Below, piece by piece: positions 4,429 to 23,999 of a DNA stretch of 64,000 nt. Made by a program: the position numbers and the translations under genes. A model generated the notes under the pieces. The model was given only the letters and a program-made list of their open reading frames with translations, was not told where the DNA came from and did no database searches. The DNA comes from Selenomonadaceae bacterium. GTDB taxonomy: Bacteria; Bacillota; Negativicutes; Selenomonadales; Selenomonadaceae. The DNA lies in the NCBI GenBank assembly GCA_022773425.1, contig JALFBM010000027.1, forward strand, positions 1 to 64,000, given 5' to 3'. Numbering within the stretch: position 1 is the stretch's first letter; every line of letters starts with the position of its first letter.

Positions 4429-4440
4429 AGAGCAAAAAAC

Positions 4441-4480
4441 AGCGGCACGAACCATGGCATGGCTCGTGCCGCTGTTTTTT
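4441..4480. terminator. Bidirectional terminator between DUF4127 gene and serC
   Basis: A perfect stem AGCGGCACGA / TCGTGCCGCT is flanked by AAAAAAC on the left and GTTTTTT on the right. It therefore works for both convergent transcripts. Confidence 0.88.
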
Positions 4481-4484
4481 GGAT

Positions 4485-5585: not shown

Positions 5586-5699
5586 ATGCGAACCTCCAGT
5601 GAATAAATGTCTTAAATTTTTGTCATTTTGTTATATTCTAGCGCGAAAAGAGCAGAAAAGCAAGAACGAAAATAAATCCTGTTTTTATGAGAAATACAC

Positions 5700-5728
5700 T
5701 TGACGGCATAAGAGAGAGGAAGTATAAT
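5700..5728 (+). promoter_or_regulatory. Promoter of the T-box/serA transcript
   Basis: TTGACG and TATAAT are separated by 17 bp, a near-consensus housekeeping promoter. It is placed about 8 bp before the expected start of the T-box leader. Confidence 0.88.
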
Positions 5729-5734
5729 AGGGCC

Positions 5735-5974
5735 ATAGGTTAAAAGGCAAGAGAGCAACGCGATGAATGGGAAGCGTTTTCCGGTATGCCCGAAGAGAGC
5801 CAGCGGACGGTGTGAGCTGGCGGCAGATGGAAGAGGTTCCGCCCGGGAGCGGCTGGCGAGGAGTCAGACGGGAAAGCCCGATACAGCATACAAGAGTGGT
5901 GCGGCAAAGCCGTATCAACTGGGTGGTACCACGGAAGTAACGCTTCGTCCCAAGGCATGGGACGAAGCGTTTTT
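5735..5974 (+). ncRNA. T-box leader of serA (tRNA-sensing riboswitch)
   Basis: This leader RNA senses uncharged tRNA and allows transcription of serA when the cognate amino acid is short. Stem I carries AGAGAGCC and the GGTGTGAGCTGG arm. The antiterminator bears the T-box core TGGTACCACGG (around 5924-5934), which pairs with the tRNA acceptor end. A strong terminator hairpin follows. Its position before serA implies tRNA-Ser. A candidate serine specifier triplet AGC lies at about 5848-5850 on the 3' side of stem I, but I could not fix the fold by eye, so the specifier is tentative. Confidence 0.92.
5939..5974 (+). terminator. Regulated terminator of the serA T-box
   Basis: A 12-bp perfect stem ACGCTTCGTCCC / GGGACGAAGCGT is followed by TTTTT. 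It lies directly after the T-box core, so it is the hairpin that competes with the antiterminator. Confidence 0.9.
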
Positions 5975-6039
5975 GCTTTATTCCCGTAAATCTTGGTCAT
6001 CTTACGCCGCAGCATTGTGTGTTCAGGAGGTTTTACAGC

Positions 6040-7629
6040 ATGAAGATTCTTGCAGCAGACGGTATTTCGCCAAAAGGGATTGCGCTTCTCAAAGAACAGG
6101 ACGGGTTCGAGGTCGTCGTCAAGGATAAGCTTCCGGCAGAGGAACTTCTCGCGATCATTCCGGAATACGACGCCATCATGGTGCGCTCGGCATCGAAGAT
6201 CACGAAAGAGGTTATCGATCGCGCGAAGAACCTCAAGATCATCGGCCGCGCCGGCGTTGGCGTCGATAACATCGATATTCCGGCGGCGACGGCGCGCGGC
6301 ATCATCGTCATCAATTCCCCAGGCGGAAATACGATTGCGGCGACGGAGCACACGATGGCCATGATGCTCGCGATGTCGCGCAATATCCCGATCGCGAACG
6401 AGACCATGCAGAAGGGTGAGTGGAACCGCAAGAAATACGTCGGCGTAGAGTTGCGCGGCAAGACGCTCGGCGTCATCGGCATGGGCCGCATCGGTTCCGG
6501 CGTCGCAAAGCGCGCGCTCGCCTTTGAGATGAACGTCATCGCTTACGATCCGTACATCAACGAGGAGCGCGCCAAGGCACTCGGCGTCAAGGTTGCGACC
6601 TTCGATGAGGTCATCCGGAACGCAGACTTCATCACCGTGCATATGCCTCTGACGAAAGAGACACGCGGCATGATCGGCATGGAGCAGATGAAGCAGATGA
6701 AGAAGGGCGTCCGTCTCATCAATTGCGCGCGCGGCGGCATCATCGTCGAGGAGGATCTTGCCGAAGCGGTGAAGCAGGGGATCGTCGCCGGCGCGGCCAT
6801 CGATGTCTATACGAGCGAGCCGGTCACGAAGGATCATCCGCTCGTTGGCGTTCCGGGCATCGTGCTGACGCCGCATCTCGGCGCTTCGACGGTCGAGGCG
6901 CAGATCAACGTCTCGACGGATGTCGCGAAGGGGATCATTGCGGCACTGCACGGCGAGCCGGTCGCGACGGCGGTCAACATGGCGCCGGTATCCCCGCAGG
7001 TCATGCAGGTCGTCGGGCCGTACCTGACGCTTGCCGAGCGTCTCGGCGGCACGGCTGTCGCCCTCGCAGACGGCGCCATCGAGAAGGTGGAAGTCACGTA
7101 TAACGGCGAGATCACGGATGTCAACACGGGCCTGTTGACGACGGCGGTCGTCAAGGGCCTGCTGAACCCGGTCATGGAAAACGAGGTCAACTACGTCAAC
7201 GCGCCGGGTCTCGCGAAGGAACGCGGCATCGAGGTCAAGGAAGTCAAGCAGAAAGAAGCCGAGAACTTCGCCAACCTCATCACGGTCACCGTCACGGCGA
7301 AAGGCAAGCCTCTCTCCGTCGCCGGCACACTGTTCGGCAAGGAAGGCCGCATCGTCCGCATCGATGCGTTCCGCGTCGATGTCGATCCGCACGCGCGCAT
7401 TGTCGTCTGCCCGCATATCAATCGTCCGGGCGTTATCGGAACCGTCGGCTCTCTGCTCGGCCGCCACGGCATCAACATCTCGGCCATGCAGGTCGGCAAA
7501 GATGTCGAGCCGGGCAAGAACCTCATGGTCTTGACCGTCGACAATGAGCTTTCCGACGACGTGCTCGCGGAGCTCAAGAAAATCGATGGGATCTTTGACG
7601 CGAAGGTCGTCGACTTCTACGCGATTTGA
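6040..7629 (+). CDS. serA: D-3-phosphoglycerate dehydrogenase
   Basis: A 529-residue NAD-dependent enzyme that oxidises 3-phosphoglycerate, the committed step of serine synthesis. The NAD-binding fold has GMGRIGSGVAKRA, with ARGGIIVEEDLAEA further on and the catalytic histidine in TPHLGASTVEAQ. The C-terminal third holds the intervening substrate-binding domain and an ACT domain (HINRPGVIGTVGSLL), the usual site of serine feedback. This is the long, three-domain form. The ORF track begins at a GTG at 6019, but the ATG at 6040 follows AGGAGG at proper spacing and starts MKILAADG, the normal family start. Expression is controlled by the upstream T-box. Confidence 0.97.
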   Translation: MKILAADGISPKGIALLKEQDGFEVVVKDKLPAEELLAIIPEYDAIMVRSASKITKEVIDRAKNLKIIGRAGVGVDNIDIPAATARGIIVINSPGGNTIAATEHTMAMMLAMSRNIPIANETMQKGEWNRKKYVGVELRGKTLGVIGMGRIGSGVAKRALAFEMNVIAYDPYINEERAKALGVKVATFDEVIRNADFITVHMPLTKETRGMIGMEQMKQMKKGVRLINCARGGIIVEEDLAEAVKQGIVAGAAIDVYTSEPVTKDHPLVGVPGIVLTPHLGASTVEAQINVSTDVAKGIIAALHGEPVATAVNMAPVSPQVMQVVGPYLTLAERLGGTAVALADGAIEKVEVTYNGEITDVNTGLLTTAVVKGLLNPVMENEVNYVNAPGLAKERGIEVKEVKQKEAENFANLITVTVTAKGKPLSVAGTLFGKEGRIVRIDAFRVDVDPHARIVVCPHINRPGVIGTVGSLLGRHGINISAMQVGKDVEPGKNLMVLTVDNELSDDVLAELKKIDGIFDAKVVDFYAI

Positions 7630-7681
7630 TCGAAAGACGCTATTGAATGGAAAGGGCGCATTCGGCGCCCGGGGAAATGCA

Positions 7682-7723
7682 AAAAGGAGCGGTGCACGGA
7701 GATCTCCGTGCACCGCTCCTTTT
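7682..7723. terminator. Bidirectional terminator after serA
   Basis: A perfect 42-bp palindrome centred on GGAGATCTCC, beginning AAAAGGAGC and ending GCTCCTTTT. It serves serA on the plus strand and the small minus-strand gene that ends at 7743. Confidence 0.9.
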
Positions 7724-7742
7724 CTATCGTTTTTTTCAGAAA

Positions 7743-8108
7743 TCAGACGGCCACCGTGCGGAAGAAGGCCTCGACGACCTGGTTCCAGCCCATCTCGTAC
7801 ACGTTGCGCTCGCCAATTTCGTTTTGGTAGGCGGCGAGCGCGAGGGTCATGAGGGAGTCGGCGATGTAGCCGTCGTCCTCCATACCGACTTCCGCGTAGC
7901 TGTCGTGCAGCTTCTTTACGGTGTCCGTAAGCCTTGCCTTCGGGAGATTGTCGATGATATCGTACATGGCGTCACAGTATTCGCCTGTGTCTTTCTTGTA
8001 TGCCTGCGGTGCGGCTTTCCATCCGTCTTCGATCTGACGGATCCGGGAAAGGGCAATCCATTGGATCTTCGCCGCGTAGAAATCGAGCGCATCGTCATTT
8101 CTTTCCAT
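7743..8108 (-). CDS. Small hypothetical protein
   Basis: A 121-residue, probably cytoplasmic and all-helical protein that I do not recognise. It has no signal peptide or obvious motif, is acidic, and ends in MGWNQVVEAFF. A ribosome site GGGAGG precedes the ATG, and a promoter is visible 30-55 bp upstream. It shares a terminator with the convergent serA, which supports it being a real single-gene transcript. No functional call is possible from sequence alone. Confidence 0.7.
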   Translation of the reverse strand: MERNDDALDFYAAKIQWIALSRIRQIEDGWKAAPQAYKKDTGEYCDAMYDIIDNLPKARLTDTVKKLHDSYAEVGMEDDGYIADSLMTLALAAYQNEIGERNVYEMGWNQVVEAFFRTVAV

Positions 8109-8135
8109 ATAACATACCTCCCTGAGCGTGTTTAC

Positions 8136-8164
8136 AGTGTAACACTTATTTTATAAAAAAGCAA
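8136..8164 (-). promoter_or_regulatory. Promoter of the small hypothetical gene
   Basis: On the minus strand TTGCTT and TACACT are separated by 17 bp. The -10 lies about 28 bp upstream of the start codon. The nearby GTGTT and AACAC arms around the -10 could be part of an operator, but this is weak. Confidence 0.5.
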
Positions 8165-8327
8165 ACTGTATGCATGTATACATTGGACGAAATGACGGGT
8201 ACAGGGAAAAAAGACCTTGCTACAAGCGTCAATGATTCCCTTATATTTTGTGTAAAATGACCAGAAAATGGACGATTCCTGCGATTTCTTTGTAAACTGC
8301 CACTCGTCTGTATTCTATATGCCTGGT

Positions 8328-9494
8328 TCAGGAATAGTTGCGCACGGTCAGGGCGAAGTACAGGACGAACCGTGTCTCTGCGTCCTCGAGGCTGCACCCG
8401 CAGATCTCTTCGATATGGTGCAGGCGGTACTTCAGCGTATTTCGGTGGATGAACAACCGGTTGGATGTGCGGAGCAGATTGCCATTTTCCTGCAGGTAGA
8501 CCTCGAGCGTCTGGATCAGCAGGGATTTGTTTTTTTTGTCGTAGATCTCGAGTGGCAGCAGGACATGCTGGACGAACTCCGTCATGTGCTCGGACCCCTT
8601 CGATTCCGGCATGGTCAGGATGAATTCGGAGAGGCCGCACGGATTGAATAGATATGGTTTCTGCAGATCCCGCTGGCGCGAAATCTGCAGGGCGACCTGC
8701 GCATTCCGGTAGCTTTGTTCGAGGGACAGCGCGTCCTCGGAGAGGGCGCCGCCAATGTGAAAGGAGACTTCGCTCTCGTCCTCCTTGATGCGCTTGTAGA
8801 GTTCCTGCAGGACCTTGGCGGCCGCCGCGTGTTTCCCGGGGAAAAGCAGCAGGAGCTGATCGTAATGGACGAGCGTGCTGAACGGGAGGTTTTGCGTTTG
8901 GAACCACATTTTGCAGAGTTCATCCGCGTTTGCGACGGCGTTGCGGCGCGGCATCTGGGCCATCGGGAGTCGCTGATAGCCGACGATGGCGAGGCATTGC
9001 GGCGAGCCGAATGGATAGCCGATATTCTGCAGCAGGCTGCCCTTGTCGGCGTACGACAGGCCGCCGAAGACCGCGGCCTGCAGGATGTTCGGCTGGCCGG
9101 TCTCGCGGGGCATCAGGATGGCGCGGCCGACCTCCTGCGTGATATCGACGAGCGGGATATCCCATGGGATCGTCATCAGTGCAAAATCGTGCTCTTTGGC
9201 ATAGCGGATGGCGGAGGAAGAGATATCGTTGAAATAACCGTCCCCGCAGAGGAAAATGATGCCCGCGAGATTCAGACGGATCGAAAGGCGCACGAGACGC
9301 ATCATGTCGAAATCTGGGCTCTGCGATACGGGGCCGCTGATGAACAGCAGCTCGCCGCCGCGGATCCAGCGGGAAAAATCGGTCGTTTCCGCGGTGTAGA
9401 CCCAACGGATCAAGCGGTCCTGGCCGCTCTTTCCCGTCAGGTAGGTCAGCTTCTGCAGAGAGGTCAGATAACGTAAATCCTTGCAGCGAAGCAT
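8328..9494 (-). CDS. PucR family transcriptional regulator
   Basis: A 388-residue regulator of the PucR/CdaR type. The N-terminal ~125 residues match the purine-catabolism regulatory (PucR) domain (GGELLFISG, LAGIIFLCGDGYFNDI). The C-terminus has the helix-turn-helix region NLLRTSNRLFIHRNTLKYRLHHIEE, with the typical NTLxYRL recognition helix. The gene lies 26 bp downstream of codA on the same strand, so it is probably co-transcribed and may control nucleobase or nitrogen-source use. The effector is not known. The gene ends before a ~220 bp gap that holds only the promoter of the next minus-strand gene. Confidence 0.88.
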   Translation of the reverse strand: MLRCKDLRYLTSLQKLTYLTGKSGQDRLIRWVYTAETTDFSRWIRGGELLFISGPVSQSPDFDMMRLVRLSIRLNLAGIIFLCGDGYFNDISSSAIRYAKEHDFALMTIPWDIPLVDITQEVGRAILMPRETGQPNILQAAVFGGLSYADKGSLLQNIGYPFGSPQCLAIVGYQRLPMAQMPRRNAVANADELCKMWFQTQNLPFSTLVHYDQLLLLFPGKHAAAAKVLQELYKRIKEDESEVSFHIGGALSEDALSLEQSYRNAQVALQISRQRDLQKPYLFNPCGLSEFILTMPESKGSEHMTEFVQHVLLPLEIYDKKNKSLLIQTLEVYLQENGNLLRTSNRLFIHRNTLKYRLHHIEEICGCSLEDAETRFVLYFALTVRNYS

Positions 9495-9520
9495 TTCCGC
9501 AAGCCTCCTTTTGGTTTCGG

Positions 9521-10774
9521 TCAGGCGAGCAGCGAGAAGCCACTCTGTACCTTGGCCGGGATTTTTGTGAACAGTTCTTTGCCGCCGCGGACGGAGCGGA
9601 TGACGCCCGCGCGCTGGCGGATGGCCTCGAACGGCGAATCGGCGTCGAGCACGATGAAGTTCGCGGGCTTGCCGGCCTCGATGCCGTACTGGTCGAGAAT
9701 ATGCATCGTGCGCGCGCCGTTGATCGTGATGAGGTCGAGTGCGTGGTCGATTTCGTCGAACGACATCATCTGAGCGATGTGGATGCCGGCGTCAAGCACG
9801 TTCATGAGGTTGCCGTTGCCGAGCGGGTACCACGGATCCGAGATGGAATCCTGTGCAAAGCAGACGTTGATGCCGGCGTCGTGAAGCTCCTTGACGCGCG
9901 TCAGGCCGCGGCGCTTCGGATAGGAGTCCTGACGGCCTTCGAGATAGATGTTTTCGGTCGGGCACGAGATGAAATTGAGCTTTGCGCGCACGAGCGTTTT
10001 CATGAGGCGGAATGCGTAGGCGTTGTTGGCGGAGCCGAAGGAGCAGGTATGGCTGGCCGTCGTGAGCTCGCCGATGCCGGCCTGGTAGGTCAGTGCGGTT
10101 AGCAACTCGAGGAAGCGCGACTGATCGTCGTCGGTCTCGTCGCAGTGCAGGTCGATGAGCTTGTCGTATTTCAGCGCGAGCTCGACCGCCTTGTGTACGG
10201 ACTTCTCGCCGAACTCACGGGCCAGTTCGAAATGGGGGATGGCGCCGACGCAGTCCGCGCCCATGCGCAGCCCCTCCTCAACGAGTTCGTCGCCGCCTTT
10301 GTACGCGTACATGCCCTCCTGCGGGAATGCGACGATCTGGATCGTCACGATATCCTTCAGCTCCTCGCGAAGCTCGAGCAGCGCCGTGAGCGAGGTCTGC
10401 GATGGATCCGTGACATCGGCATGCGTGCGGATGTACTGGACGCCGGCGGTGACTTCCTCGCGGACGGCTTTGCGCGCGCGCTGCTTGATTTCTTCGGTCG
10501 TTGCGTCGGCTTTTGTCTCGCTCCACCGCTGGATGCCTTCAAACAGCGTGCCAGTTTGGTTCGTCGCGCCCTCCTGGCGGGCCGTATAGACATAGTCGAG
10601 GTGGATATGCGGATCGACATAGGGCGGGACCGTCAGCTTCCCGCCGAGGTCGATGACCACTGCGTCCGCTGCTTCGAGATGGGGCGCAATGGCCGCGAAT
10701 TTGTCGTCCTCAACGAGAATATCCTGACATTCGGCCGTATCCTGCAGGCGTGCGTTACGATAAAGCTTTTTCAT
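9521..10774 (-). CDS. codA: Cytosine deaminase / CodA-like amidohydrolase
   Basis: A 417-residue metal-dependent amidohydrolase most like cytosine deaminase, which hydrolyses cytosine to uracil and ammonia in pyrimidine salvage. Metal ligands are visible in PYVDPHIHLD, in LIDLHCDETDD and in CFAQDSISDPW, and the segment IVAFPQEGMYAYKGG is characteristic of CodA. Related isocytosine or creatinine deaminases share these motifs, so exact substrate is inferred. The ORF track starts 23 codons upstream at 10843, but that extension covers a terminator-like hairpin. The ATG at 10774 follows GGGAGG at good spacing. It heads a two-gene unit with the PucR-type regulator. Confidence 0.88.
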   Translation of the reverse strand: MKKLYRNARLQDTAECQDILVEDDKFAAIAPHLEAADAVVIDLGGKLTVPPYVDPHIHLDYVYTARQEGATNQTGTLFEGIQRWSETKADATTEEIKQRARKAVREEVTAGVQYIRTHADVTDPSQTSLTALLELREELKDIVTIQIVAFPQEGMYAYKGGDELVEEGLRMGADCVGAIPHFELAREFGEKSVHKAVELALKYDKLIDLHCDETDDDQSRFLELLTALTYQAGIGELTTASHTCSFGSANNAYAFRLMKTLVRAKLNFISCPTENIYLEGRQDSYPKRRGLTRVKELHDAGINVCFAQDSISDPWYPLGNGNLMNVLDAGIHIAQMMSFDEIDHALDLITINGARTMHILDQYGIEAGKPANFIVLDADSPFEAIRQRAGVIRSVRGGKELFTKIPAKVQSGFSLLA

Positions 10775-10794
10775 GGTAAAACCTCCCGAAATAG

Positions 10795-10830
10795 AAAAAT
10801 TCCGCCCGCTGCCAAAGCAGCGGAGCGGAA
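10795..10830 (-). terminator. Terminator-like hairpin inside the codA leader
   Basis: On the minus strand TTCCGC-CCGCTGC pairs with GCAGCGG-GCGGAA around TTTG, followed by TTTTT. It lies between the codA promoter and the start codon, so it can only act as an attenuator. No known riboswitch class was recognised in the ~35 nt preceding it. Confidence 0.7.
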
Positions 10831-10872
10831 CTTCGTTGTCCAACCGTCTATGATGTTTGTTTTGATGCGTTT

Positions 10873-10901
10873 AGTATAAATCTTTTGTGCATATTTGTCA
10901 A
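10873..10901 (-). promoter_or_regulatory. Promoter of codA-pucR
   Basis: Minus-strand TTGACA and TATACT are separated by 17 bp, nearly perfect consensus. The expected transcript start near 10866 gives a leader of about 90 nt. Confidence 0.88.
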
Positions 10902-11004
10902 ACCCCTCGAATCTGTTCGTTCGTTTTGTTTACAGAAAGCGGGATGACGACGAGAAAACTTGTGCATTTTGTATAGGACTGTTTTACCGTATCTCTTTGG
11001 CGCA

Positions 11005-13113
11005 TCAAAGCGAGAGGTAGCGCCGTTCCTCTTCGACCTCCGGCGGAAGGGCCTCCGGATGCGAGCGTTCGATCTTGCGCACGACGAGGTCGAGGTTGTG
11101 AATCCGGCCGCTCTGTTTGACCGACCACCGCTCCATGAGCTGCCGGTACTGCGGATTCGAGCCGCGAAGCGTCCGGAGGTCTTTGGCGAACGTGCAGTAG
11201 CGGAACAGGATTTCCCGCGCGGGTTTTGTCAGCTTTGGCATGCCGGCGGACTCGTTTTGGATGTATTTCAGATAGTCGCTCATGAAGACTTTTTTGTAGT
11301 CGTTGCGGGCTTTCTGCAGCGAGAGCTTGATATGCTCCTTGGCCTCGCTTGACAGGTAGCCGTCGCGGCGGTAAAAGAGCAGATAGTTCATGTATTCCGC
11401 GGTCAGCGACGGATCCTGGATATCGGCGTAGCGCACGCCCTGAATGCGGCGGCAGAGTTCCCAGCGGAAAATCGCGCACATCTTGATCACGGTTTCGTAC
11501 AGATCCTCGGAATGGAAGATGGAGAGCATCATGTGGGCGGGCGTCGTGCGGCGCGCACCCTCGATCTCCTGCCACATAACCCCGCGGCTGCCGACGTTCG
11601 GCATCAATAGGATATAGGGCTTGACCTCCGTGTGGTAAAAGAAATACGGGATCTTGAACTGCGGCAGCGCGACGCGCGTCTGACGATAGAAGCAGCCGTA
11701 GTCGATGGCGAGCACGCGGTCAAAGGTCTCGCGGACTTTTGCGGGGCTCGCGAGGCTCTTGTCGAGCGGGCGCAAGACGTTCTGCGCGTGGAACACCGGG
11801 ACGAACGAGGACAGGCGGCCGTAAGTGTTCCGGTTGACCAGTTTGAACATATGTTGGATCTCAAACTGCACCATCGCGCGGCGGTCGGTCTGCAGCTCCT
11901 TTTCCTCGTCTGCGGAGATGGTTTTGTTGCGCTTCTCCTCGCGGAGGTGCGACTCCCAGTCGTTGTCGAACTCATCCTTGGACGGGACCGCCGTTCCGCG
12001 GTAAATCCGTGCGAGCCATTCGTAGGCGGAGAGAATCCGGCCCTCGGGATCCTCCTCCCAGTCTAACGCGATGCGGGCGAGCAGGTCTGTATTGCTGCGG
12101 CCGGCGAGCGTCTCGTCGACGAAGCCAAACAGAAAGAACATCCGCACCTCGAGCGGGACGGTCTCCGCGTCCATGCTGCGCCAAAACGCCGATTCGTAGA
12201 TGGCGTAGAAGGTATCGGTGATGCGTCGGCGGAGCAGCCGCATCGCGTCCGATTTCGCGAAGCGGTCTTCGGCCGCCGTATAGGCCTCGATGTCCTTGCG
12301 GAACGCATCGGCGAGCTCCGGGGCGACGCCCGAGAACGCGAGGATCATGTCGAGGGCGTGCGCGATGACCGGCACATCGCCGGAACCGTTGCGCATCTGC
12401 TCTTCGACGCGCGCCTTCGCCTGATAGTACGCGGAGACGAAGGGCGAGACCGCGGTTTTCGTCTGCTCCTGGAACGCGGCATAGGCGGCGAGCTCCTGCC
12501 GGACCTTGGCTTCGAAATGCGAGGCGCGCAGAACCGTGGCAAAACAAAAGCTCAGGTCGAGCGCGTAAAAGGCTTTTTTCAGCTCGCCCTGATGGTCGCA
12601 GGCGGCGCGGCAGAGCGAGGCCTCCCAGCCGGAAGAGAGTCCCGATGGCTCTGGCGCCGAAAGGCACTCGACAACCGGGAAAGACGCGGGGGCCTTCTTG
12701 GCCTTGACGCAGAGAATCGCGTATTCCCGGTACTGTTCGGCGAGCTCCTTGCAGAGCGCGTCCGCGGCGTCGGACGCAGCGGACAGGGCATCGAGCATTG
12801 CCGCTGCGTTCCGCATGCTCGCGGCGGCGATGACCGGCGCGATGGCCGGTGTGTTCGTCACAGCCTCGAAAATATCGTCCTCCGATGCGTAGTCAAAGAC
12901 AACGAGCGTGGAATCGCTGTCTGCCGTATAATCAAAGGCGTAGGTATCTCCTGGCGCATATGAGGCGCCGAGAATGGTACCGCCGCTCAGCCGGATATCC
13001 AGATCATCGCCGTCCTCCATCTGGATGGCCCCGGCGAGCAGGAGCTCCAGCGATTGCACCGGTTCGCCCTTCCGGTGCAGAACTTGTCCCTTTTGTACTG
13101 TAATCTTATCCAC
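11005..13113 (-). CDS. Cyclic nucleotide-binding domain protein of unknown function
   Basis: A 702-residue protein. The first ~110 residues look like a cyclic nucleotide-binding (cupin-like) fold: ITVQKGQVLHRKGEPVQSLELLLAGAI is the standard opening of such domains. The remaining ~590 residues are mostly helical, rich in aromatic residues and acidic or basic patches, with no membrane segments and no catalytic signature or DNA-binding helix that I can identify. The C-terminal part (AHMMLSIFHSEDLYETVIKMCAIFRWEL) is the most structured-looking region. It is a single-gene minus-strand unit with its own promoter. It may sense a nucleotide, but the output is unknown. Confidence 0.75.
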   Translation of the reverse strand: MDKITVQKGQVLHRKGEPVQSLELLLAGAIQMEDGDDLDIRLSGGTILGASYAPGDTYAFDYTADSDSTLVVFDYASEDDIFEAVTNTPAIAPVIAAASMRNAAAMLDALSAASDAADALCKELAEQYREYAILCVKAKKAPASFPVVECLSAPEPSGLSSGWEASLCRAACDHQGELKKAFYALDLSFCFATVLRASHFEAKVRQELAAYAAFQEQTKTAVSPFVSAYYQAKARVEEQMRNGSGDVPVIAHALDMILAFSGVAPELADAFRKDIEAYTAAEDRFAKSDAMRLLRRRITDTFYAIYESAFWRSMDAETVPLEVRMFFLFGFVDETLAGRSNTDLLARIALDWEEDPEGRILSAYEWLARIYRGTAVPSKDEFDNDWESHLREEKRNKTISADEEKELQTDRRAMVQFEIQHMFKLVNRNTYGRLSSFVPVFHAQNVLRPLDKSLASPAKVRETFDRVLAIDYGCFYRQTRVALPQFKIPYFFYHTEVKPYILLMPNVGSRGVMWQEIEGARRTTPAHMMLSIFHSEDLYETVIKMCAIFRWELCRRIQGVRYADIQDPSLTAEYMNYLLFYRRDGYLSSEAKEHIKLSLQKARNDYKKVFMSDYLKYIQNESAGMPKLTKPAREILFRYCTFAKDLRTLRGSNPQYRQLMERWSVKQSGRIHNLDLVVRKIERSHPEALPPEVEEERRYLSL

Positions 13114-13155
13114 AGTAATCCTCCCGTGCGGCTTGTTCCCTGTACTTCCTTTCCT

Positions 13156-13184
13156 ATTTTACTGGAAAGCGCTGCGCTTGACAA
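13156..13184 (-). promoter_or_regulatory. Promoter of the cyclic nucleotide-binding domain gene
   Basis: Minus-strand TTGTCA and TAAAAT with 17 bp spacing, about 43 bp before the start codon. Confidence 0.65.
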
Positions 13185-13419
13185 GCGGCCGGGACGTTTT
13201 TTCAGGCAGGGTAGGTACAGAGTCCCACCTATCGAGAAATTATGAAAATGCCGCTTCGCCTTCGCACGGAAATCCACGATTCCATTTCGTTTTCATGGCA
13301 CACTTTCCTCCGGAAAAATTGCTTTTTCTAGAAGAAAGTGCATAGGAGGCGTCGAATAGGCATAGAGAAAGGGTTCGATACGGCGGCTTGCTTTGCAGAA
13401 AAGCGCGCTGTGCCGTTAG

Positions 13420-13596
13420 GAAAATACGGACAATGCGGTCACGTCGATGCAGGCGGGCTCGACGCAGGTGGCAGACGGTACGGCGGCCACCGAGGAGCAG
13501 AGTGCTTCGACCGAGGAGATCGCTTCGGCCTCGCAGTCCCTCGCTCAGATGGCGACGGATCTGCAGGAGGGCACGAGCCATTTCAAGCTCAGTTGA
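13420..13596 (+). pseudogene. 3' remnant of a methyl-accepting chemotaxis protein gene
   Basis: These ~58 codons encode the end of a chemoreceptor. In frame 1 they read NAVTSMQAGSTQVADGT directly followed by AATEEQSASTEEIASASQ and SLAQMATDLQEG, then a stop. AATEEQSASTEEIA is a signature of receptor cytoplasmic tips and their flanks. In intact receptors tens of residues lie between the VxxGT helix and the TEEQSAS helix, so besides the missing 5' end there is probably an internal in-frame deletion. The frame is closed upstream by TAG at 13417. The original terminator is preserved just downstream. It is too short for the ORF track. Confidence 0.85.
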
Positions 13597-13614
13597 GTTT
13601 GCAGATATCACAAA

Positions 13615-13658
13615 GTCGCAGTACGAGCCAGGTTTTCGCTTGTGCTGCGGCTTTTTTT
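13615..13658 (+). terminator. Terminator of the lost chemoreceptor gene
   Basis: GTCGCAGTACGAGC pairs along 14 positions (with G-U pairs) with GCTTGTGCTGCGGC, followed by TTTTTTT. It now isolates comEA from upstream transcription. Confidence 0.82.
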
Positions 13659-13750
13659 GCAAAAAAAAGAAAAACTTTTGTTTCTGCCAGCAGGAGAAAT
13701 CCCTTTCGTGTGGAAGTATGTTCTTGAACAAAACGACGGGAGGGATGGAC

Positions 13751-14326
13751 ATGCCGATGATGAAACGGTCACTAATTATCCTGCTGGTGCTGCTGGCGGC
13801 GGTGGCGTTCGGAACCATTTGGGGACTTACGCGGAGCGGGGATGGCGTCGAGCTGACAGAGAGCAGCCGGGAGACGGTGCAGCCCGCGCAGGAGAGCGTG
13901 ATGGTCTACGTGACGGGTGCCGTGAACAATCCAGGCCTGGTTACGCTGGGGGCGGATGCGCGCGTCGCTGATGCGGTGCGCGCCTGCGGCGGGCTTTTGC
14001 CGACCGCGGATGCTGAGCACATCAACATGGCGCAGGAGATCAAGGATGGCCAGCAGATCAAGGTGCCGGAGAAGCAGGGCTTGGCGCAGAAGGAGGGAAA
14101 GGCACAGGCGGACGGGAAGGCCGGGGCGCAGGGCGGACGCATTAACATCAACACGGCGGACGAGAAGGAACTCGACAGTCTGCCTGGCGTCGGCCCGTCG
14201 ACGGCAAAGCGCATCATCGAATACCGCGAAACGGAGGGGAACTTCCAAAAGCCGGAGGACATCAAGAAGGTCAAGGGCATCGGGGACGGCAAGTACAACA
14301 AGCTAAAGGATAAGATCTGCGTATGA
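13751..14326 (+). CDS. comEA: Competence protein ComEA
   Basis: A 191-residue membrane-anchored DNA receptor for transformation. It has an N-terminal hydrophobic anchor (LIILLVLLAAVAFGTIWGL), an SLBB-type region (VMVYVTGAVNNPGLV) and two C-terminal helix-hairpin-helix DNA-binding motifs (ININTADEKELDSLPGVG and KVKGIGDGKYNKL). The ORF track starts far upstream at 13388 through the receptor remnant in another frame. I placed the start at the ATG at 13751, seven bases after GGGAGGG; 13757 is also possible. The stop overlaps the comEC start by four bases, so the two are coupled. Confidence 0.93.
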   Translation: MPMMKRSLIILLVLLAAVAFGTIWGLTRSGDGVELTESSRETVQPAQESVMVYVTGAVNNPGLVTLGADARVADAVRACGGLLPTADAEHINMAQEIKDGQQIKVPEKQGLAQKEGKAQADGKAGAQGGRININTADEKELDSLPGVGPSTAKRIIEYRETEGNFQKPEDIKKVKGIGDGKYNKLKDKICV

Positions 14327-16788
14327 GCGGCGAGGAGAACCGTTCCTGGGCGAGATGGGGCCAGGACACGTACCTGCTTTTCCTGCTTTTCGCGCTCTGC
14401 GCCGGCATTGCGGCCGGATATGTCCTGCCGTTCCTCCCCTTTGGCGGACAGGTGCTTTGCGTCGCCCTGCTCGCCGTGATTGCCGCGGTCGGCGTTTTCC
14501 GCGGCCGTGCCTGGACGGGGATTCTCCTTCTCCTGCTCGCGTTCGCCGTCGGCATTTTCCGCATGCAGGCGGTCTGGCAACTGCCGGAAACGGATATCTC
14601 GCATTTCGCGAAACAGGAAGTGCGTGTCAAAGGGACACTGACGGAGGAACCCCGCCGGACCCTCGATGCACGCGGACAAGAACGCGTACGCTACACGGTC
14701 GAGGCCCAAAAGGTGCGAACTGGCGGCGTGGAGCAGAAGGCAGGCGGCGGCCTCTACGTCTACGCCGCTGCGCCAAAGGACGGCGCCCTGCCGCAGATCG
14801 GCGATACGGTAACCGCGCGCGGGAAAATCCGCACGCCACACGGGTATCTCAATCCTGGTCAGATCGATACGGAGCTGTTGCTGCGCGCGGACGGCATCAC
14901 GGCGTCGCTCGCCGCGGGGAAAGCCGGGGCGACGTTCGAACAGAACACAAATCCGACGGCTTACCAGCGTCTGCAGCGCGTACTGTCTCAGGTGCGGCAG
15001 CATTATCGGGACCGTATGGGCGAGGTCATGCCCAAGGAGGACGCGGCGGTCCTGTTCGCGATGCTGTTCGGCGGCTACGACGGCATCAAACCGGAGGTCG
15101 TCGAAGACTTTACGACGACGGGGATCGTGCATATCCTGTCGGTATCCGGCTCGCATATCAGTCTGCTCGCGGCCGCGACGGCATGGCTCGCCCTGCTGCT
15201 TCATCTGCCGCGAAAGGCGACGGGGGCGCTCGCCGTGCTTTTTATCGCGCTTTACGCGATGCTCGCGGGTTGCGTGCCGCCCGTGCTACGCGCGGCTATC
15301 ATGGGCTCGCTTGCGTTTCTCGCGGCGGTGCTGGGCCGCGAACGCGACGCGCGGCGCCTGTTGCTACTCTCAGGGCTTATGATGCTGCTGGTTTCGCCGC
15401 TGCTGCTCTTTCATATCAGCTTTGAGCTTTCGTTTGCCGCGACGGCAGGTTTGCTGTATCTCGCGCCCGCGTGGGGAAAAGGTATGGTGAGACGCGGGAT
15501 CCCGCGCGCTCTCGCGGGGAGCCTCTCGATCACGCTCGCGGCGCAGATGGCCACGCTCCCTCTGCTCGCCTGGTACTTCCATCAGGTCTCGCTTTCGTCG
15601 CTGCTTGCGAACCTGTTTGTCGTGCCGATTCTTGAGGGCATCATCGTGGTCTGCCTCGCGGCGGGGCTGATTGCCTTCGTCCTGCCCTTTTTCGGCAAGG
15701 GAATTTTCCTGCTCAGCAGCCTGGCGTTTGGTCTTGCGGAGGAGCTGACGCATCTTTTCGCGCAGATGCCGGGGAGTCAGGTCTGGGTTCCCGTGCTGCC
15801 CCTGCCGCTTTGTGCGGTCTTTTACGCTGTGCTTGCCCTTTCGGCTCTTTCGGAAGAGGAACGCGGCCGCCTTTGGCAGCTGGCAGGAAAATGGGGTCGA
15901 AAAAAAGAAAAGTTATGGAAGGGACTCGGCGCAGGAATGGCATGCGTCACCGTGCTCTTTGCGGCGGCTAGCCTGTTTCGCCCGGCTGAGCTCACGGTAC
16001 ACTTCCTCGACGTCGGGCAGGGCGATGCCGCGCTGGTCGTGACGCCACACGGGCATGCGTTCCTGTTCGATACGGGCGGTGTGCGCGAGGGGCGCTTTGA
16101 TGTCGGCAGCCGCGTCGATGTACCCTATCTGCTGCATTATGGCATCCGGCGGGTGGACGCCGTATTCTTGACGCATGCGCACGAGGATCATGCGGCGGGC
16201 TGCGGCGGGATTCTCGCGAAGCTGCCGGTCGGCGCGGTCTACACGGCGGGCGAGGGCGTGCAGGCGTACGCGCGCAGCATGCGCCTGGGCGACGCGAGCC
16301 CGTTCCTGCTGAAATTCCATCCGGCGCAGCAGGGACAGAAGCTGTCCGTGGACGGCGTGACCATCGAGGTACTCTACGCGCCCCAGCCCAGCGGGACGGC
16401 GAGTGGCGGCGGAAACGAGTTTTCCAATGTCTATCGTGTGAGCTATGGGGCGGCGTCGTTCCTGTTCACGGGGGACCTCGTGGCGGGGCAGGAGCAACGC
16501 CTGCTCGAGGAGAGCATTTCCCCGAAAGCGACGGTCCTGAAAGTCGGCCATCACGGGTCGGATACCTCCTCGTCGGCTGCCTTCCTGAGGGCCGTATCGC
16601 CGCAGGCGGCGGTGATCTGCGTCGGCCGGGATAATTCGTTCGGGCACCCGAAGCCGGTGATCCTCGAGCGTTTGCGCGAGGCGCATATCCCGTACTATCG
16701 GACGGATGAGGATGGCGCTGTCGTATTTCACACGGATGGAAAAAGGCTCTGGCAGGAGACTTATACGGGGAGAGAAGCGGAAGAATGA
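14323..16788 (+). CDS. comEC: DNA internalization protein ComEC/Rec2
   Basis: An 821-residue membrane protein forming the channel that brings single-stranded DNA across the cytoplasmic membrane. After two to three N-terminal membrane helices comes a soluble OB-like segment, then the Competence domain with many membrane helices starting near VHILSVSGSHISLLAA. From about residue 556 there is a metallo-beta-lactamase-like domain: VHFLDVGQGDAALV, FLTHAHEDHAAG and KVGHHGSDTSSS provide the metal ligands expected for a nuclease. It overlaps comEA upstream and the helicase gene downstream, both by ATGA. Confidence 0.95.
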   Translation: MSGEENRSWARWGQDTYLLFLLFALCAGIAAGYVLPFLPFGGQVLCVALLAVIAAVGVFRGRAWTGILLLLLAFAVGIFRMQAVWQLPETDISHFAKQEVRVKGTLTEEPRRTLDARGQERVRYTVEAQKVRTGGVEQKAGGGLYVYAAAPKDGALPQIGDTVTARGKIRTPHGYLNPGQIDTELLLRADGITASLAAGKAGATFEQNTNPTAYQRLQRVLSQVRQHYRDRMGEVMPKEDAAVLFAMLFGGYDGIKPEVVEDFTTTGIVHILSVSGSHISLLAAATAWLALLLHLPRKATGALAVLFIALYAMLAGCVPPVLRAAIMGSLAFLAAVLGRERDARRLLLLSGLMMLLVSPLLLFHISFELSFAATAGLLYLAPAWGKGMVRRGIPRALAGSLSITLAAQMATLPLLAWYFHQVSLSSLLANLFVVPILEGIIVVCLAAGLIAFVLPFFGKGIFLLSSLAFGLAEELTHLFAQMPGSQVWVPVLPLPLCAVFYAVLALSALSEEERGRLWQLAGKWGRKKEKLWKGLGAGMACVTVLFAAASLFRPAELTVHFLDVGQGDAALVVTPHGHAFLFDTGGVREGRFDVGSRVDVPYLLHYGIRRVDAVFLTHAHEDHAAGCGGILAKLPVGAVYTAGEGVQAYARSMRLGDASPFLLKFHPAQQGQKLSVDGVTIEVLYAPQPSGTASGGGNEFSNVYRVSYGAASFLFTGDLVAGQEQRLLEESISPKATVLKVGHHGSDTSSSAAFLRAVSPQAAVICVGRDNSFGHPKPVILERLREAHIPYYRTDEDGAVVFHTDGKRLWQETYTGREAEE

Positions 16789-19403
16789 GCAAAAGAAACG
16801 ATGCCGGGAATCCGGCCATGCAGCTAAATCGCAGACAGCAAAGCGTCGTGGATACGCTTGACGAGAACATCCTGCTACTGGCAGCGGCGGGGACGGGGAA
16901 GACGAATGCCATGGCGTGCCGCATCGCGCATATCCTGTCTCGCGCTCTCGCGGAGCCGGAGGAGATCCTATGCCTGACCTTTACGAACAAGGCATGCCGG
17001 GAGATGCGCAGCCGTCTCGAATCCATCGTCGGTGACGCGGCGGACCGCGTGATCACGCGGACGTTTCACGGCCTCTGCTACGATATTGTCAAGGCGGAGA
17101 CAAAAAAGCATTCGGATCTTTTTGCGGACTTCACGATATTTGATGAAGTGGACTGCCGCAGTATTCTGCGGGAAATTTTTCAGCAGCGCGGGGAGACCTG
17201 GCCGGTCCAGGCGGTACAAAATCTGATCGGCATGATGAAGCTGGCGCGCGGGGAAGCGCTGCTGTCTGGCGACAGGCCGTCTGATTATGCGGAAATCCTG
17301 CACGAGCTCCTGGAGGAGCGGCCGCAGGAGTTGCAGAAGCGGTGCCTCGATGGAACATGGCGCTACAACGAGGCTATGTATCAAGGGTGGCGGAAATACG
17401 GCGCGCAGATCGCAGCGCTCTACGATCAGCGGCTGCACGATGTGCACGGGCTGGATTTTGACGACCTGCTCGTCGAGGCGGGGCGGCTGCTCTCGCGGCC
17501 GGAAATCGCGGCGTACTGGGCGCAGCGGTTCCGCTTCATTCACATCGATGAGGTCCAGGATACGAGCGCCTTTGAGTACGCGGTGCTCGAGAAGCTTTTT
17601 GGTGCGAGCCGTCTGATGCTCGCCGGCGATTTCTTCCAGACCATTTACGCGTGGCGCGGATCCCGCCCGGAAATCGTGCTCGGCGCGTATCGGGAAAAGT
17701 ATCACCCGACAACTATCGTGTTCCGTGAGAATTATCGATCGACCCAGATCCTGCTCGACGCGTCGTTTGGCTGCCTGCAGAGCCTTTTCCCCGAACGCGT
17801 CGCGGCGGTCTACCCGGATGGGCTCGAGGCGGAAAGCGAGGAGGCCGGCGTGCCGATCCTGCTAAAGGGCGCGCTCGATTTCGCCGAGGAAGCGCAGTGG
17901 ATTTACGATACGATCGCGCAGCTCCCGGCGAAGGATTATGCGAAAATCTGCATCCTGACGCGGAATAACCGTTACAACAAGGCGCTTTCCCAGCAGTTCC
18001 GCTACCTCGGCCGGGACGTGCCGGCCGAGGAGCGCATCCCGTTCATGCTGATCGACGACCAAAAGTTTTTCCGGCGGCAGGAGATCAAGGATGCGCTCGC
18101 CTTCTTGCGCTTGCTCGTAAGTCCGCATGACGTGACGAGCTTCATGCGGATCCTGCACCGGTTTGGCGGTGGGATCGGCCCTGCGCTGATTCACCGCATT
18201 TCTTCGCCGCCTTACCGCGAGGCGGGCATCCGGCTGACAGACTATCTGGACCCCGTGGCGCGGCAGACCGGGGATCCCTATTCGGCGCTGCTCGAGGCGC
18301 TCCGGGCGGAACAGGTCGTCGTCTTCGATGTCGAGGCGACGGGCGTTGATCCGACACGCGATGAGATCATCCAGATCGCAGGCATCCGCCTTGACGCAGA
18401 GGGGCACGTAAAAAAGACCTTCAAGCGGCTGCTGCATCCGGCGCGTCCGGTCGGTGATTCCGTGAAGGTACACAAGCTCACGGACGCGTTTCTCGCGGAG
18501 CATGGCGAGAAACCGGAGAAAGTCTTGAAGGATTTTTGCGCTTTCGTTCGCGGCAGCATGGTTGTCGGGCACAACGTCACCTACGATATCGGCATTTTGC
18601 AGAGCCAGCTCGCGCGGCTCGGTCTGCCGCCGGCCGATTTCCTCGGTTTCTACGATACGCTCGATATCTTCCGGCGGTTCTATCCGAATCTGCCCAACCA
18701 CCGTCTCGAGACCATCGGCGCTTACTGCCAGGTCAAGCACGCGTCGAGCCACGACGCGATGGACGATATCCTCGCGACGGCGGAGATCCTGCTCTATGCC
18801 GTGAAGCGGAATATCGCGCCGCGGGCGGCCGATCGCCGACAGTTTATGCAAGAGGATCTGCCAAAATTCGCGGGACTCGCGGCGATGATGGATGGGTTTC
18901 GCGAGCAGGCGGGGATTGTGCGCCCGTGGCAGCTGCTCGGGCAGATTGTCGTCGAGGCCGGTATCGACGCGTATTACCGGAAACGACATGAGGAAGAACG
19001 GATTGAGAATCTGCGCGAACTGTTTCGCCAGGCAAGGGATACCGACGACCCGGCCATCCGGCCGCTCGATGCGGTCTTCAGGTTTCTGCGCTATACAACG
19101 CTTTCGAGTACGGAGCTCGACGCGCTGACGAAAAAGACGCAGATCCCGATTATCACGGTGCATCAGGCCAAGGGCACGGAATTTGATTATGTGTTCCTCG
19201 CGGGGCTGCAGGAGGGGACCTTTCCGGGTTTCCAAGCCATGCAGTCGGGCTGCCTCGACGAGGAAAAGCGCCTGTTCTACGTCGCGGTCACACGGGCGCG
19301 CAAACGGCTTTTTCTGTCGTGGAGCCAGCGTGTAAACAGCCACTACCAGCATATGAGCCCATTTATCCACGCGATACCGGCACGCTATCTGCGCAATGTC
19401 TGA
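16785..19403 (+). CDS. UvrD/PcrA-type helicase with inserted DnaQ-like exonuclease domain
   Basis: An 872-residue superfamily 1 helicase. Visible motifs in order: Walker A AAAGTGKT (about 33-40), LTFTNKACREM, Walker B FIHIDEVQDT, GDFFQTIYAWRGS, FRENYRST, then late motifs VHQAKGTEFDYV and YVAVTRARKRLFLSW. Between the 2B region and the late motifs, at about residues 505-675, sits a complete DEDDh 3'-5' exonuclease domain: VFDVEATGVD, GHNVTYDIG and SSHDAMDD supply the acidic residues and the histidine. The start codon overlaps the comEC stop, so it is translationally coupled to the DNA uptake channel. A role on incoming DNA is inference; a general repair role is equally possible. Confidence 0.9.
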   Translation: MSKRNDAGNPAMQLNRRQQSVVDTLDENILLLAAAGTGKTNAMACRIAHILSRALAEPEEILCLTFTNKACREMRSRLESIVGDAADRVITRTFHGLCYDIVKAETKKHSDLFADFTIFDEVDCRSILREIFQQRGETWPVQAVQNLIGMMKLARGEALLSGDRPSDYAEILHELLEERPQELQKRCLDGTWRYNEAMYQGWRKYGAQIAALYDQRLHDVHGLDFDDLLVEAGRLLSRPEIAAYWAQRFRFIHIDEVQDTSAFEYAVLEKLFGASRLMLAGDFFQTIYAWRGSRPEIVLGAYREKYHPTTIVFRENYRSTQILLDASFGCLQSLFPERVAAVYPDGLEAESEEAGVPILLKGALDFAEEAQWIYDTIAQLPAKDYAKICILTRNNRYNKALSQQFRYLGRDVPAEERIPFMLIDDQKFFRRQEIKDALAFLRLLVSPHDVTSFMRILHRFGGGIGPALIHRISSPPYREAGIRLTDYLDPVARQTGDPYSALLEALRAEQVVVFDVEATGVDPTRDEIIQIAGIRLDAEGHVKKTFKRLLHPARPVGDSVKVHKLTDAFLAEHGEKPEKVLKDFCAFVRGSMVVGHNVTYDIGILQSQLARLGLPPADFLGFYDTLDIFRRFYPNLPNHRLETIGAYCQVKHASSHDAMDDILATAEILLYAVKRNIAPRAADRRQFMQEDLPKFAGLAAMMDGFREQAGIVRPWQLLGQIVVEAGIDAYYRKRHEEERIENLRELFRQARDTDDPAIRPLDAVFRFLRYTTLSSTELDALTKKTQIPIITVHQAKGTEFDYVFLAGLQEGTFPGFQAMQSGCLDEEKRLFYVAVTRARKRLFLSWSQRVNSHYQHMSPFIHAIPARYLRNV

Positions 19404-19459: not shown

Positions 19460-19599
19460 GCAGGAAGGGAAGATCCTGCAGATGATGTTATGCGGGCATC
19501 GGGAATATGCCCCCTATACACAGTATAAGGAAAAATATATTTTATGTCAAGACAGAAATGGGACAGAAGACATATAAAATTTATGGGAGAGGTGTAAGC

Positions 19600-20652
19600 T
19601 TGTTATTTTCTCCTTTTATGGCAGAGCTCCGAAAGGGAAAGGCAGAGGGGTGCCATGTGTTCCTGATGGCCGGTGAGGAATCGTATTTCATCGACAAGGC
19701 GCGCGAATGGATTCTCTCCATGCTGTTTCCCGACGCGGCGGGGAGGCAGGACGGGCTCGAAAAGCTGCAGGGGGCGGTCGATACCGATAAGGTCATCCGT
19801 CTGCTTGAGAACGCGCCGTTTCTGACGGACAAGAACGTGGTATTCTGGCAGGATCCGCCTTTCCTGGCGGTGAAAAAAACCGACGGGGAAAAGCCGGAAA
19901 AAAAGACGAAGGACAAAAAACAGGCGCGGTGGCTCGATTATCTGCAGAACCTGCCTCCGTACAGTTATCTGATCCTTCAGGCGGCGCATAAGCCGGATAA
20001 ACGAAAAAAAATCTATAAGACCCTCGAGCAGTATGGCATGGTGCTCGAGGCGGAACCCATCCGCGCATGGAATATCGGCGAATGGCTGCAGGGCAAGCTC
20101 CAGTCGATGCACCGCGATATGGACCGCGGTGCGCGCGCGTATTTCGCCCGTGCGGTCAGCGTCATGGACAAAATTGACCTGACCTACCTCGATACGGAGC
20201 TCAGCAAGCTCCCGCTTTACAGCGACAGGCAGCGGTATACGCAGCAGGATCTTGAGACGGTATTCTCGAGTCTCCCGGAGGTCTCTTCGTTTGCGCTGCT
20301 CGACGCGGTCAGTGAGCGGAACGGGCGGCGCGCGTTGATGCTGCTGCGGCGTCAGTTCGAGGACGGCACGTATTTCACGCGGATCCTCGCGCTGCTCGTC
20401 CGTCACGTGCGCCAGCTCTGGCAGGCAAAGGTTCTCATGGGGCAGGGCATTCGCGGCAGGGAGCTCGCGAAGCCGATGAGCCTGAACCCCTATATTGCGG
20501 AAAAAGTCGGCCAGGCCGCGGCGGCTTTTCCAGAATCCGTGCTTGAGCGTGGCATGCTCGAGCTCATCGATGCGGACTACCTGTTGAAAACGGGACAGGC
20601 CGGTAATGAGAGGCTGGAACATGCCATCATCACGCTATGCGGCGGGGCATGA
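19600..20652 (+). CDS. holA: DNA polymerase III subunit delta
   Basis: A 350-residue clamp-loader subunit that opens the beta clamp. Family features include VFLMAGEESYFIDKA near the N-terminus (position of the AAA+ fold lacking a full Walker A) and the C-terminal helical domain LLRRQFEDGTYFTRILALLVRHVRQLWQAK. holA commonly follows comEC in Firmicutes, which supports the call. The ORF track starts at 19507; I prefer TTG at 19600, preceded by GGGAGAGGTG, or the ATG at 19618, because upstream residues are not family-like. The gene is separated from the helicase gene by a terminator. Confidence 0.92.
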   Translation: MLFSPFMAELRKGKAEGCHVFLMAGEESYFIDKAREWILSMLFPDAAGRQDGLEKLQGAVDTDKVIRLLENAPFLTDKNVVFWQDPPFLAVKKTDGEKPEKKTKDKKQARWLDYLQNLPPYSYLILQAAHKPDKRKKIYKTLEQYGMVLEAEPIRAWNIGEWLQGKLQSMHRDMDRGARAYFARAVSVMDKIDLTYLDTELSKLPLYSDRQRYTQQDLETVFSSLPEVSSFALLDAVSERNGRRALMLLRRQFEDGTYFTRILALLVRHVRQLWQAKVLMGQGIRGRELAKPMSLNPYIAEKVGQAAAAFPESVLERGMLELIDADYLLKTGQAGNERLEHAIITLCGGA

Positions 20653-22809: not shown

Positions 22810-22901
22810 CTATTTTATAGTTGCATTTCGTAACAATTTTCTGTAAGATTGTATATCGTATAGGGGTATTCTATCTTTATGGGTGGAAGCTGGGGATAAG
22901 T

Positions 22902-23999
22902 GTGAGTGAGGAAACGAAGGAACGATATCTTCTCGCGGCCTTATCGGAGGTCCCCGGGTTCGGGAGCCGACGGCTCCGTCGGCTGCTCGAGGCGTTCCCG
23001 GCAGCGGAGCTTTGGCGGATTCCTGTGGAGGAAATGCGCGAGGTCGAGCCATCGGCGGCGCTGCGCGGCCGACTTGCCGCGTTCCGCGCCGAGCATCCGG
23101 ATGAGCCGGAAAGGCTGCGGGAGCGTTGCGAGAAAGCGGGCGCGGCGGTCTGCACGATCCATTCTGCGGTGTATCCCGATGCCTTGCGCGAGATTTTCGA
23201 TCCGCCGATTGTGCTTTACTACCGCGGTACCATGATCCCCGACGCACGTCGTGTCGCCATGGTCGGGTCCCGCCGCTGCAGCAGCTACGGCGAGGGCATC
23301 GCTCAGCATTTTGCACGGGATTTCGTTGCGGCTGGCCTGACCGTCGTCAGCGGTGCCGCGCGCGGCATCGATACGAACGCGCACAAGGGCGCGCTAAGGG
23401 GCGGCGGCCGCACGGCCGCCGTGCTCGGCTGCGGGATCGACATCGCCTATCCGCGGGAGAACCGGCGCCTGCTCGAGGAAATCGCGGAACACGGCGTGGT
23501 GATCAGCGAGTACGGGCCGGGCGTGCAGCCTCTGCCCGCGTTTTTCCCAGCGCGCAATCGCATCATCAGCGGCCTTTCGGAGGGAACGCTGGTCGTCGAG
23601 GCGGCGCGTCGCAGCGGGTCATTGATCACGGCGGAGCTCGCGCTTTCGGAGGGGCGGAACGTCTACGCGGTGCCGGGCAGCATCTGGTCGGCATCCTCCG
23701 CTGGCTGCCATCATCTGATTCAGCAAGGGGCAAAGCTCGTGACTGCGCCGCCGGATGTCCTCGAGGACTATGGCGTCGAGGCTGTGCCATCGCGGGAAAA
23801 ACGCCTTTCGTTGAGCCCCGAGGAGAGAAAAATCTGGCAGGTGCTTTCCTTTGACCATTATCTGACCCCGGACGAAATCGTCCTGAGCCTGCCGGACGGC
23901 GATATCGCGAATCTTCCCCTGCTGCTCCTGCAAATGGAGCTTAAGGGATTGATCCTACAGAACGATTTGCACGCCTATCGGCGCGCGGAGAGGGAGTGA
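22902..23999 (+). CDS. dprA: DNA processing protein DprA
   Basis: A 365-residue protein that loads RecA onto single-stranded DNA during transformation. The N-terminus has a SAM-like fold (VPGFGSRRLRRLLEAF); the Rossmann core has VAMVGSRRCSSYGEG and VSGAARGIDTNAHKGAL; and a C-terminal winged-helix region follows (LSPEERKIWQVLSFDHYLTPDEI). The ORF track begins at 22821, but the upstream residues are not family-like. GTG at 22902, with GGGGAT upstream, gives the normal length. With comEA and comEC in the same window it completes much of a natural transformation set. topA follows by 4 bp. Confidence 0.93.
   Translation: MSEETKERYLLAALSEVPGFGSRRLRRLLEAFPAAELWRIPVEEMREVEPSAALRGRLAAFRAEHPDEPERLRERCEKAGAAVCTIHSAVYPDALREIFDPPIVLYYRGTMIPDARRVAMVGSRRCSSYGEGIAQHFARDFVAAGLTVVSGAARGIDTNAHKGALRGGGRTAAVLGCGIDIAYPRENRRLLEEIAEHGVVISEYGPGVQPLPAFFPARNRIISGLSEGTLVVEAARRSGSLITAELALSEGRNVYAVPGSIWSASSAGCHHLIQQGAKLVTAPPDVLEDYGVEAVPSREKRLSLSPEERKIWQVLSFDHYLTPDEIVLSLPDGDIANLPLLLLQMELKGLILQNDLHAYRRAERE

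Follow-up and report, generated by a model that had tools for sequence, protein, structure and literature searches.

Single-stranded DNA is traversed in the 3'-to-5' direction by motors of the UvrD/PcrA type. DEDDh enzymes, which use two metal ions, degrade DNA in the 3'-to-5' direction. DinG-type exonuclease-helicases and WRN are SF2 helicases with an N-terminal exonuclease, whereas RecB, AddA and AdnAB possess a C-terminal nuclease of the RecB type (PD-(D/E)XK) and act together with a partner subunit. Within the UvrD family the 2B subdomain is regulatory: in the autoinhibited monomer, duplex DNA is contacted by its GIG motif, and this part of 2B is located near the 2B-2B interface of the active dimers (PMC13238157). 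In the UvrD-like GajB of Gabija the GIG motif is lacking (PMC10681800). Here we analyzed a gene of a Selenomonadaceae bacterium which encodes a helicase of this family with an exonuclease embedded in subdomain 2B. It lies within a DNA stretch of 64,000 nucleotides, referred to as the window. No description of such a fusion was found in the open-licence papers searched.

Architecture of the Fusion Protein

A preliminary description of the window had proposed that a complete DnaQ-like exonuclease is inserted in the 2B region of a UvrD-type helicase. This was borne out by Pfam, alignment and fold comparison. Both UvrD (PF00580/PF13361) and RNase_T (PF00929) are matched in one protein, the RNase_T match being full-length and nested within UvrD_C (Table 1), and the sequences VFDVEATGVD, GHNVTYDIG and SSHDAMDD, quoted for the exonuclease, are all present. 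The protein displays all hallmarks of SF1A helicases, namely the Walker A motif, the DExx box, motif VI and the UvrD_C domain, and its 2B subdomain contains the GIG motif. The motif residues of the motor (Walker A and motif II) are invariant across 22 relatives. An AlphaFold model of the protein reached a mean pLDDT of 86, and among PDB structures its fold is best matched by UvrD and PcrA. The whole-chain match is characterized by low TM-scores and a high rmsd, which is consistent with an inserted domain and the mobility of 2B. For the insert itself, NCBIfam reports PolC/DnaQ-type exonucleases, and the nearest solved chains are those of PolC and DnaQ.

Table 1. Features of the fusion gene and of the surrounding locus (window coordinates).
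Feature	Position	Strand	Evidence and remarks
702-aa protein	11005..13113	-	weak cyclic-nucleotide-binding match
comEA-like, SLBB and helix-hairpin-helix	13388..14326	+	TIGR01259 101 bits (below cut-off 152); TIGR00426 above cut-off
comEC	14323..16788	+	TIGR00361 276.7 bits, cut-off 190
UvrD-type SF1A helicase with embedded DEDDh exonuclease, 872 aa	16785..19403	+	ATG at 16785, stop at 19403
UvrD N-terminal motor region, residues 14-302	16824..17690	+	PF00580 2e-57; Walker A GTGKT, motif II DEVQD
UvrD C-terminal region (UvrD_C), residues 311-848, split by the exonuclease	17715..19328	+	PF13361 6.7e-91
GIG motif of subdomain 2B, residues 463-465	18171..18179	+	alignment with five PcrA-like proteins
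DEDDh exonuclease domain, residues 512-669	18318..18791	+	PF00929 (RNase_T) 8.1e-29
holA, DNA polymerase III delta subunit	19507..20652	+	TIGR01128 213 bits, cut-off 80
dprA	22821..23999	+	

Insertion Site and Catalytic Residues

For the determination of the insertion site the protein was aligned with PcrA-like proteins from five genomes, the window genome's own among them, which were labeled as PcrA-like because of their profile and alignment similarity and the absence of an exonuclease. In this alignment the 2B sequence runs through the GIG motif and the next helix, is interrupted soon afterwards by the exonuclease as a single clean insertion, and then continues. The same site is used in relatives from Negativicutes, Clostridia, Cyanobacteria, an acidobacterium and Bacteroidota plasmids. 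Given the regulatory role of 2B, the duplex contact of GIG and the nearby dimer interface in the homologs, the exonuclease would thus be placed at the switch of the motor.

The DEDDh signature (D-x-E, D, H-x4-D) is present in the window protein. The catalytic pentad D515, E517, D601, H656 and D661 is invariant in 22 relatives, and the loss of these acidic residues, which had been suggested as a point to be checked on an alignment, was not observed in any of the 34 members of a more diverse set, which came from Bacillota, Cyanobacteria, Bacteroidota plasmids and an acidobacterium. This conservation argues for retained catalysis, and a catalytically dead exonuclease was rejected on the same grounds.

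Origin and Distribution of the Family

In a tree calculated from the helicase part only (exonuclease columns left out), 34 fusions were separated from the five PcrA-like proteins with a support of 100/100; since these were the sole outgroups, exonuclease-free relatives could still nest within the fusion clade. With the fused helicases standing apart from PcrA, the simplest reading of the sequences is that the exonuclease was gained in one insertion event. A 2439-aa "giant fusion" from C. cadaveris (L098) was discarded as an artefact of a masked N run.

The fusion was detected in 24 of 61 sampled relatives of the window genome and in 27 out of a phylum-wide sample of 399 genomes. In the distribution tree, a quick tree with flagged long branches and therefore uncertain in its details, Clostridium sequences as well as Megasphaera branches fall among the Negativicutes/Selenomonadaceae, and both Megasphaera and Schwartzia are split into two groups. 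The placement of Clostridium and these splits suggest horizontal transfer or hidden paralogy. Judged by length and profile, the window genome additionally encodes a PcrA-like protein, an SF1 helicase without exonuclease, and an AddA-like protein, which indicates that the fusion is an additional enzyme and not a replacement. A substitution for AddAB or PcrA was rejected accordingly.

Gene Neighborhoods in Negativicutes and Proposed Function

Comparison of flanking sequences revealed no constant partner of the fusion among the sampled neighbors in Negativicutes. In Veillonella it follows dnaX-ybaB-recR, in Pectinatus a mltG-like gene and in Anaerovibrio an aldolase gene is found nearby, and further neighbors are genes for an aminotransferase, clostripain, prephenate dehydratase and glutamate dehydrogenase (gdh). 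The lack of a constant partner fits an enzyme that works alone. Some of the loci show peculiarities of their own. In the Veillonella loci, recR and the fusion are separated by a conserved ORF (7737-7985 in L071) which codes for about 80 aa and is not matched by any Pfam family. At L052 a free-standing DnaQ-like exonuclease (216 aa, 7338-7988, RNase_T by Pfam) is encoded 12 bases upstream of the fusion, and a homolog of this ORF is located 2 bases upstream at L101 (7327-7989), resulting in two predicted exonuclease domains in tandem at both loci.

The reading which we prefer, with slightly better than even confidence, is that of an ATP-driven 3'-5' translocase-exonuclease which stands alone and serves genome maintenance or the processing of foreign DNA. 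Thereby a UvrD/PcrA-type motor tracking in the 3'-to-5' direction would be equipped, on its regulatory 2B arm, with a DEDDh exonuclease of 3'-to-5' polarity. The motor would load on single-stranded DNA, and the exonuclease would digest 3' ends at or near the junction of single and double strand, ATP-driven movement being coupled to digestion. As 2B undergoes wide swings in enzymes of the UvrD family, its position probably gates the access of the nuclease. An additional influence of the insert on 2B-2B dimerization is possible. The likely task would be to remove unwanted DNA with 3' ends in the course of genome maintenance, or to attack foreign DNA. The proposal draws on the intact helicase motifs, the GIG motif and the pentad, on the single insertion site throughout the family and on the predicted UvrD fold. 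For genome maintenance or general DNA clean-up as the actual job the chances seem about even. "Genome maintenance" is partly a default, deduced from the absence of a constant partner, and the patchy distribution (24/61) together with the mixing of Clostridium and Megasphaera sequences is more in line with a gene that is accessory or was transferred than with core repair.

Defense Contexts and the Relation to RTasHel

Several distant relatives are found next to defense genes, the identities of which are profile annotations. Three cyanobacterial fusions of a named collection adjoin a protein of 1018-1155 aa that matches the UG35 defense reverse transcriptase with >1000 bits, in both gene orders, and a fourth one (L208), from the phylum sample, is likewise located beside a UG35 reverse transcriptase. 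The cyanobacterial loci L206, L207 and L208 have their flanking genes in common and represent one chromosomal site. At this site the place beside the fusion is taken by the reverse transcriptase in L208 and by a HindVP-type endonuclease and a C5 methyltransferase in L206 and L207, which suggests the exchange of a defense module. Furthermore, the fusion of L144, a Bacillota genome, lies within a cluster of UvrD-like and Mokosh-like proteins, a Tmt/Mokosh-like protein adjoins the fusion on a Chryseobacterium plasmid, and one relative adjoins an HsdR_N protein. In the L144 cluster (3224-16725) the fusion is flanked by three more UvrD-like proteins, and by a Mokosh-like helicase which also possesses a DUF559 nuclease domain.

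These contexts of distant relatives count against the genome-maintenance reading. Combined with the patchy distribution, they would agree with a defense enzyme that recognizes and degrades phage or plasmid DNA, acting alone in Negativicutes and elsewhere forming a module together with a reverse transcriptase or a restriction system. We consider this possible but doubtful. The sampled neighbors in Negativicutes are housekeeping genes, and a reverse transcriptase was found neither in the flanks of the fusion nor in the window genome, which is 82% complete and gave no match to RVT_1. The best PADLOC match of the window protein is indeed RTasHel (PDLC03802) with 460 bits, and the exonucleases of L104 and L105 occupy the same 2B site as that of the window protein. 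However, the PcrA-like protein of the same genome is about level with 412+53 bits in two pieces, so that the profile does not separate the fusion from another SF1 helicase without exonuclease. Because of this equal score and the missing reverse transcriptase, an assignment of the window gene as a component of a UG35 DRT system was rejected.

The comEC Locus

The fusion gene was described as overlapping comEC by ATGA (4 nt) and lying between comEC and holA, and both statements are correct. The comEA-like ORF as listed is probably over-long at its 5' end, and the true holA start is probably located downstream of 19507. A 702-aa protein is encoded divergently from comEA, and genes related to it are also found upstream of comEA in several Selenomonas loci. 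Moreover, dprA follows 3.4 kb downstream of the fusion; comEA, comEC and dprA are thus clustered in the window genome. At the other fusion loci examined dprA was not found.

The 4-nt overlap suggests that the fusion is co-transcribed with comEC in this genome. A competence factor of this kind would process incoming single strands or displaced recipient strands in transformation, and a role of this kind had been suggested in the preliminary description from the location in the DNA uptake operon. Besides the overlap, comEA upstream and dprA downstream speak in its favor, as does the retention of the comEC linkage over much of a Selenomonas/Mitsuokella clade. Nevertheless, we regard it as improbable. 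The preliminary description had itself named an occurrence mostly away from competence genes as the finding that would tell against it, and this is what the neighborhood survey returned. Only 18 of the 78 scorable family loci, window included, are near comEC, all of them from this one clade, with a minimum of four changes of the linkage state on the tree. In Veillonella, Pectinatus, Anaerovibrio, Megasphaera, Clostridium and cyanobacteria the fusion is unlinked to comEC. Conversely, comEC was present in all 61 sampled relatives, 37 of which lack the fusion, and can therefore do without it; among the 24 carriers, nine have both genes within 2 kb on one contig.

The interval between comEC and holA is not reserved for the fusion either. 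In 13 loci gdh is found directly downstream of the fusion inside this stretch, which shows that unrelated genes are taken in, and a GGDEF protein is encoded there at some loci of the clade. In three relatives (L168, L183, and L185) comEC is directly followed by holA without the fusion, and in relatives the gap between the fusion and comEC often amounts to hundreds of bases or is occupied by another gene. In streptococci the transforming DNA is taken up with its 3' end leading, and given such an entry the donor strand would be at risk from a 3'-5' exonuclease. The survey led us to reject a general coupling of the family to competence, and it illustrates how little a common operon with comEC says about a role in transformation. 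The fusion is probably not a dedicated competence factor. Most simply, its comEC address in this lineage is explained by an insertion into the comEA-comEC-holA locus, with a lineage-specific co-option into transformation being conceivable.

To regard the exonuclease as a remnant or a structural insert which solely regulates the helicase via 2B would suit its position in this regulatory subdomain, near the surface used in UvrD dimerization (PMC13238157), but is hardly credible with the pentad kept in 34/34 diverse members.

Significance and Comparison with Known Systems

To judge from the sequences, the helicase-exonuclease design recurs in several bacterial phyla and the adjacency to comEC is local to one bacterial group. 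Since 2B is the regulatory switch of UvrD-family motors, an exonuclease built into it with the GIG motif kept provides a natural experiment on the coupling of motor and nuclease. In addition, the helicase partner of the UG35 reverse transcriptase is itself a helicase-exonuclease, which helps to explain this partner, and at one cyanobacterial site such an enzyme is paired with a restriction system instead of the reverse transcriptase. A more far-reaching interpretation, which we consider rather unlikely, would be that of a widespread SF1A helicase-exonuclease family with the nuclease on the swinging 2B arm and its access switched by the rotation of 2B, a portable DNA-degrading engine that works with reverse transcriptases or restriction enzymes in some phyla and alone in Negativicutes.

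The window protein has the motor, the fold and the GIG motif in common with the SF1A helicases PcrA, UvrD and Rep and differs from them by the DEDDh exonuclease in 2B. In NCBIfam it scores far below the respective equivalog cut-offs (PcrA 345.5 vs. 911.2, UvrD 286 vs. 1144, Rep 278 vs. 951). With the DnaQ/PolC-type DEDDh exonucleases the insert shares the domain and the pentad; those enzymes are free-standing or part of a polymerase, whereas here the exonuclease is embedded in a helicase. DinG-type exonuclease-helicases (TIGR01407) and, by analogy, WRN likewise combine a DEDD exonuclease and a helicase in one chain, but the window protein belongs to SF1A and its exonuclease is internal. As in RecB, AddA and AdnAB, a nuclease is joined to a UvrD-type motor; a RecB-type nuclease domain was not found in the window protein by Pfam, and its scores are far below the addA and recB cut-offs. 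GajB has the UvrD-like fold in common, and the window protein matches many GajB profiles; in contrast to GajB it retains the GIG motif and carries an exonuclease, and it does not qualify as the GajB of a Gabija system. The cyanobacterial RTasHel proteins beside UG35 are about 35% identical to the window protein, whose gene has no reverse transcriptase nearby. Both the 2B insertion site of their exonuclease and its catalytic residues agree with those of the window protein.
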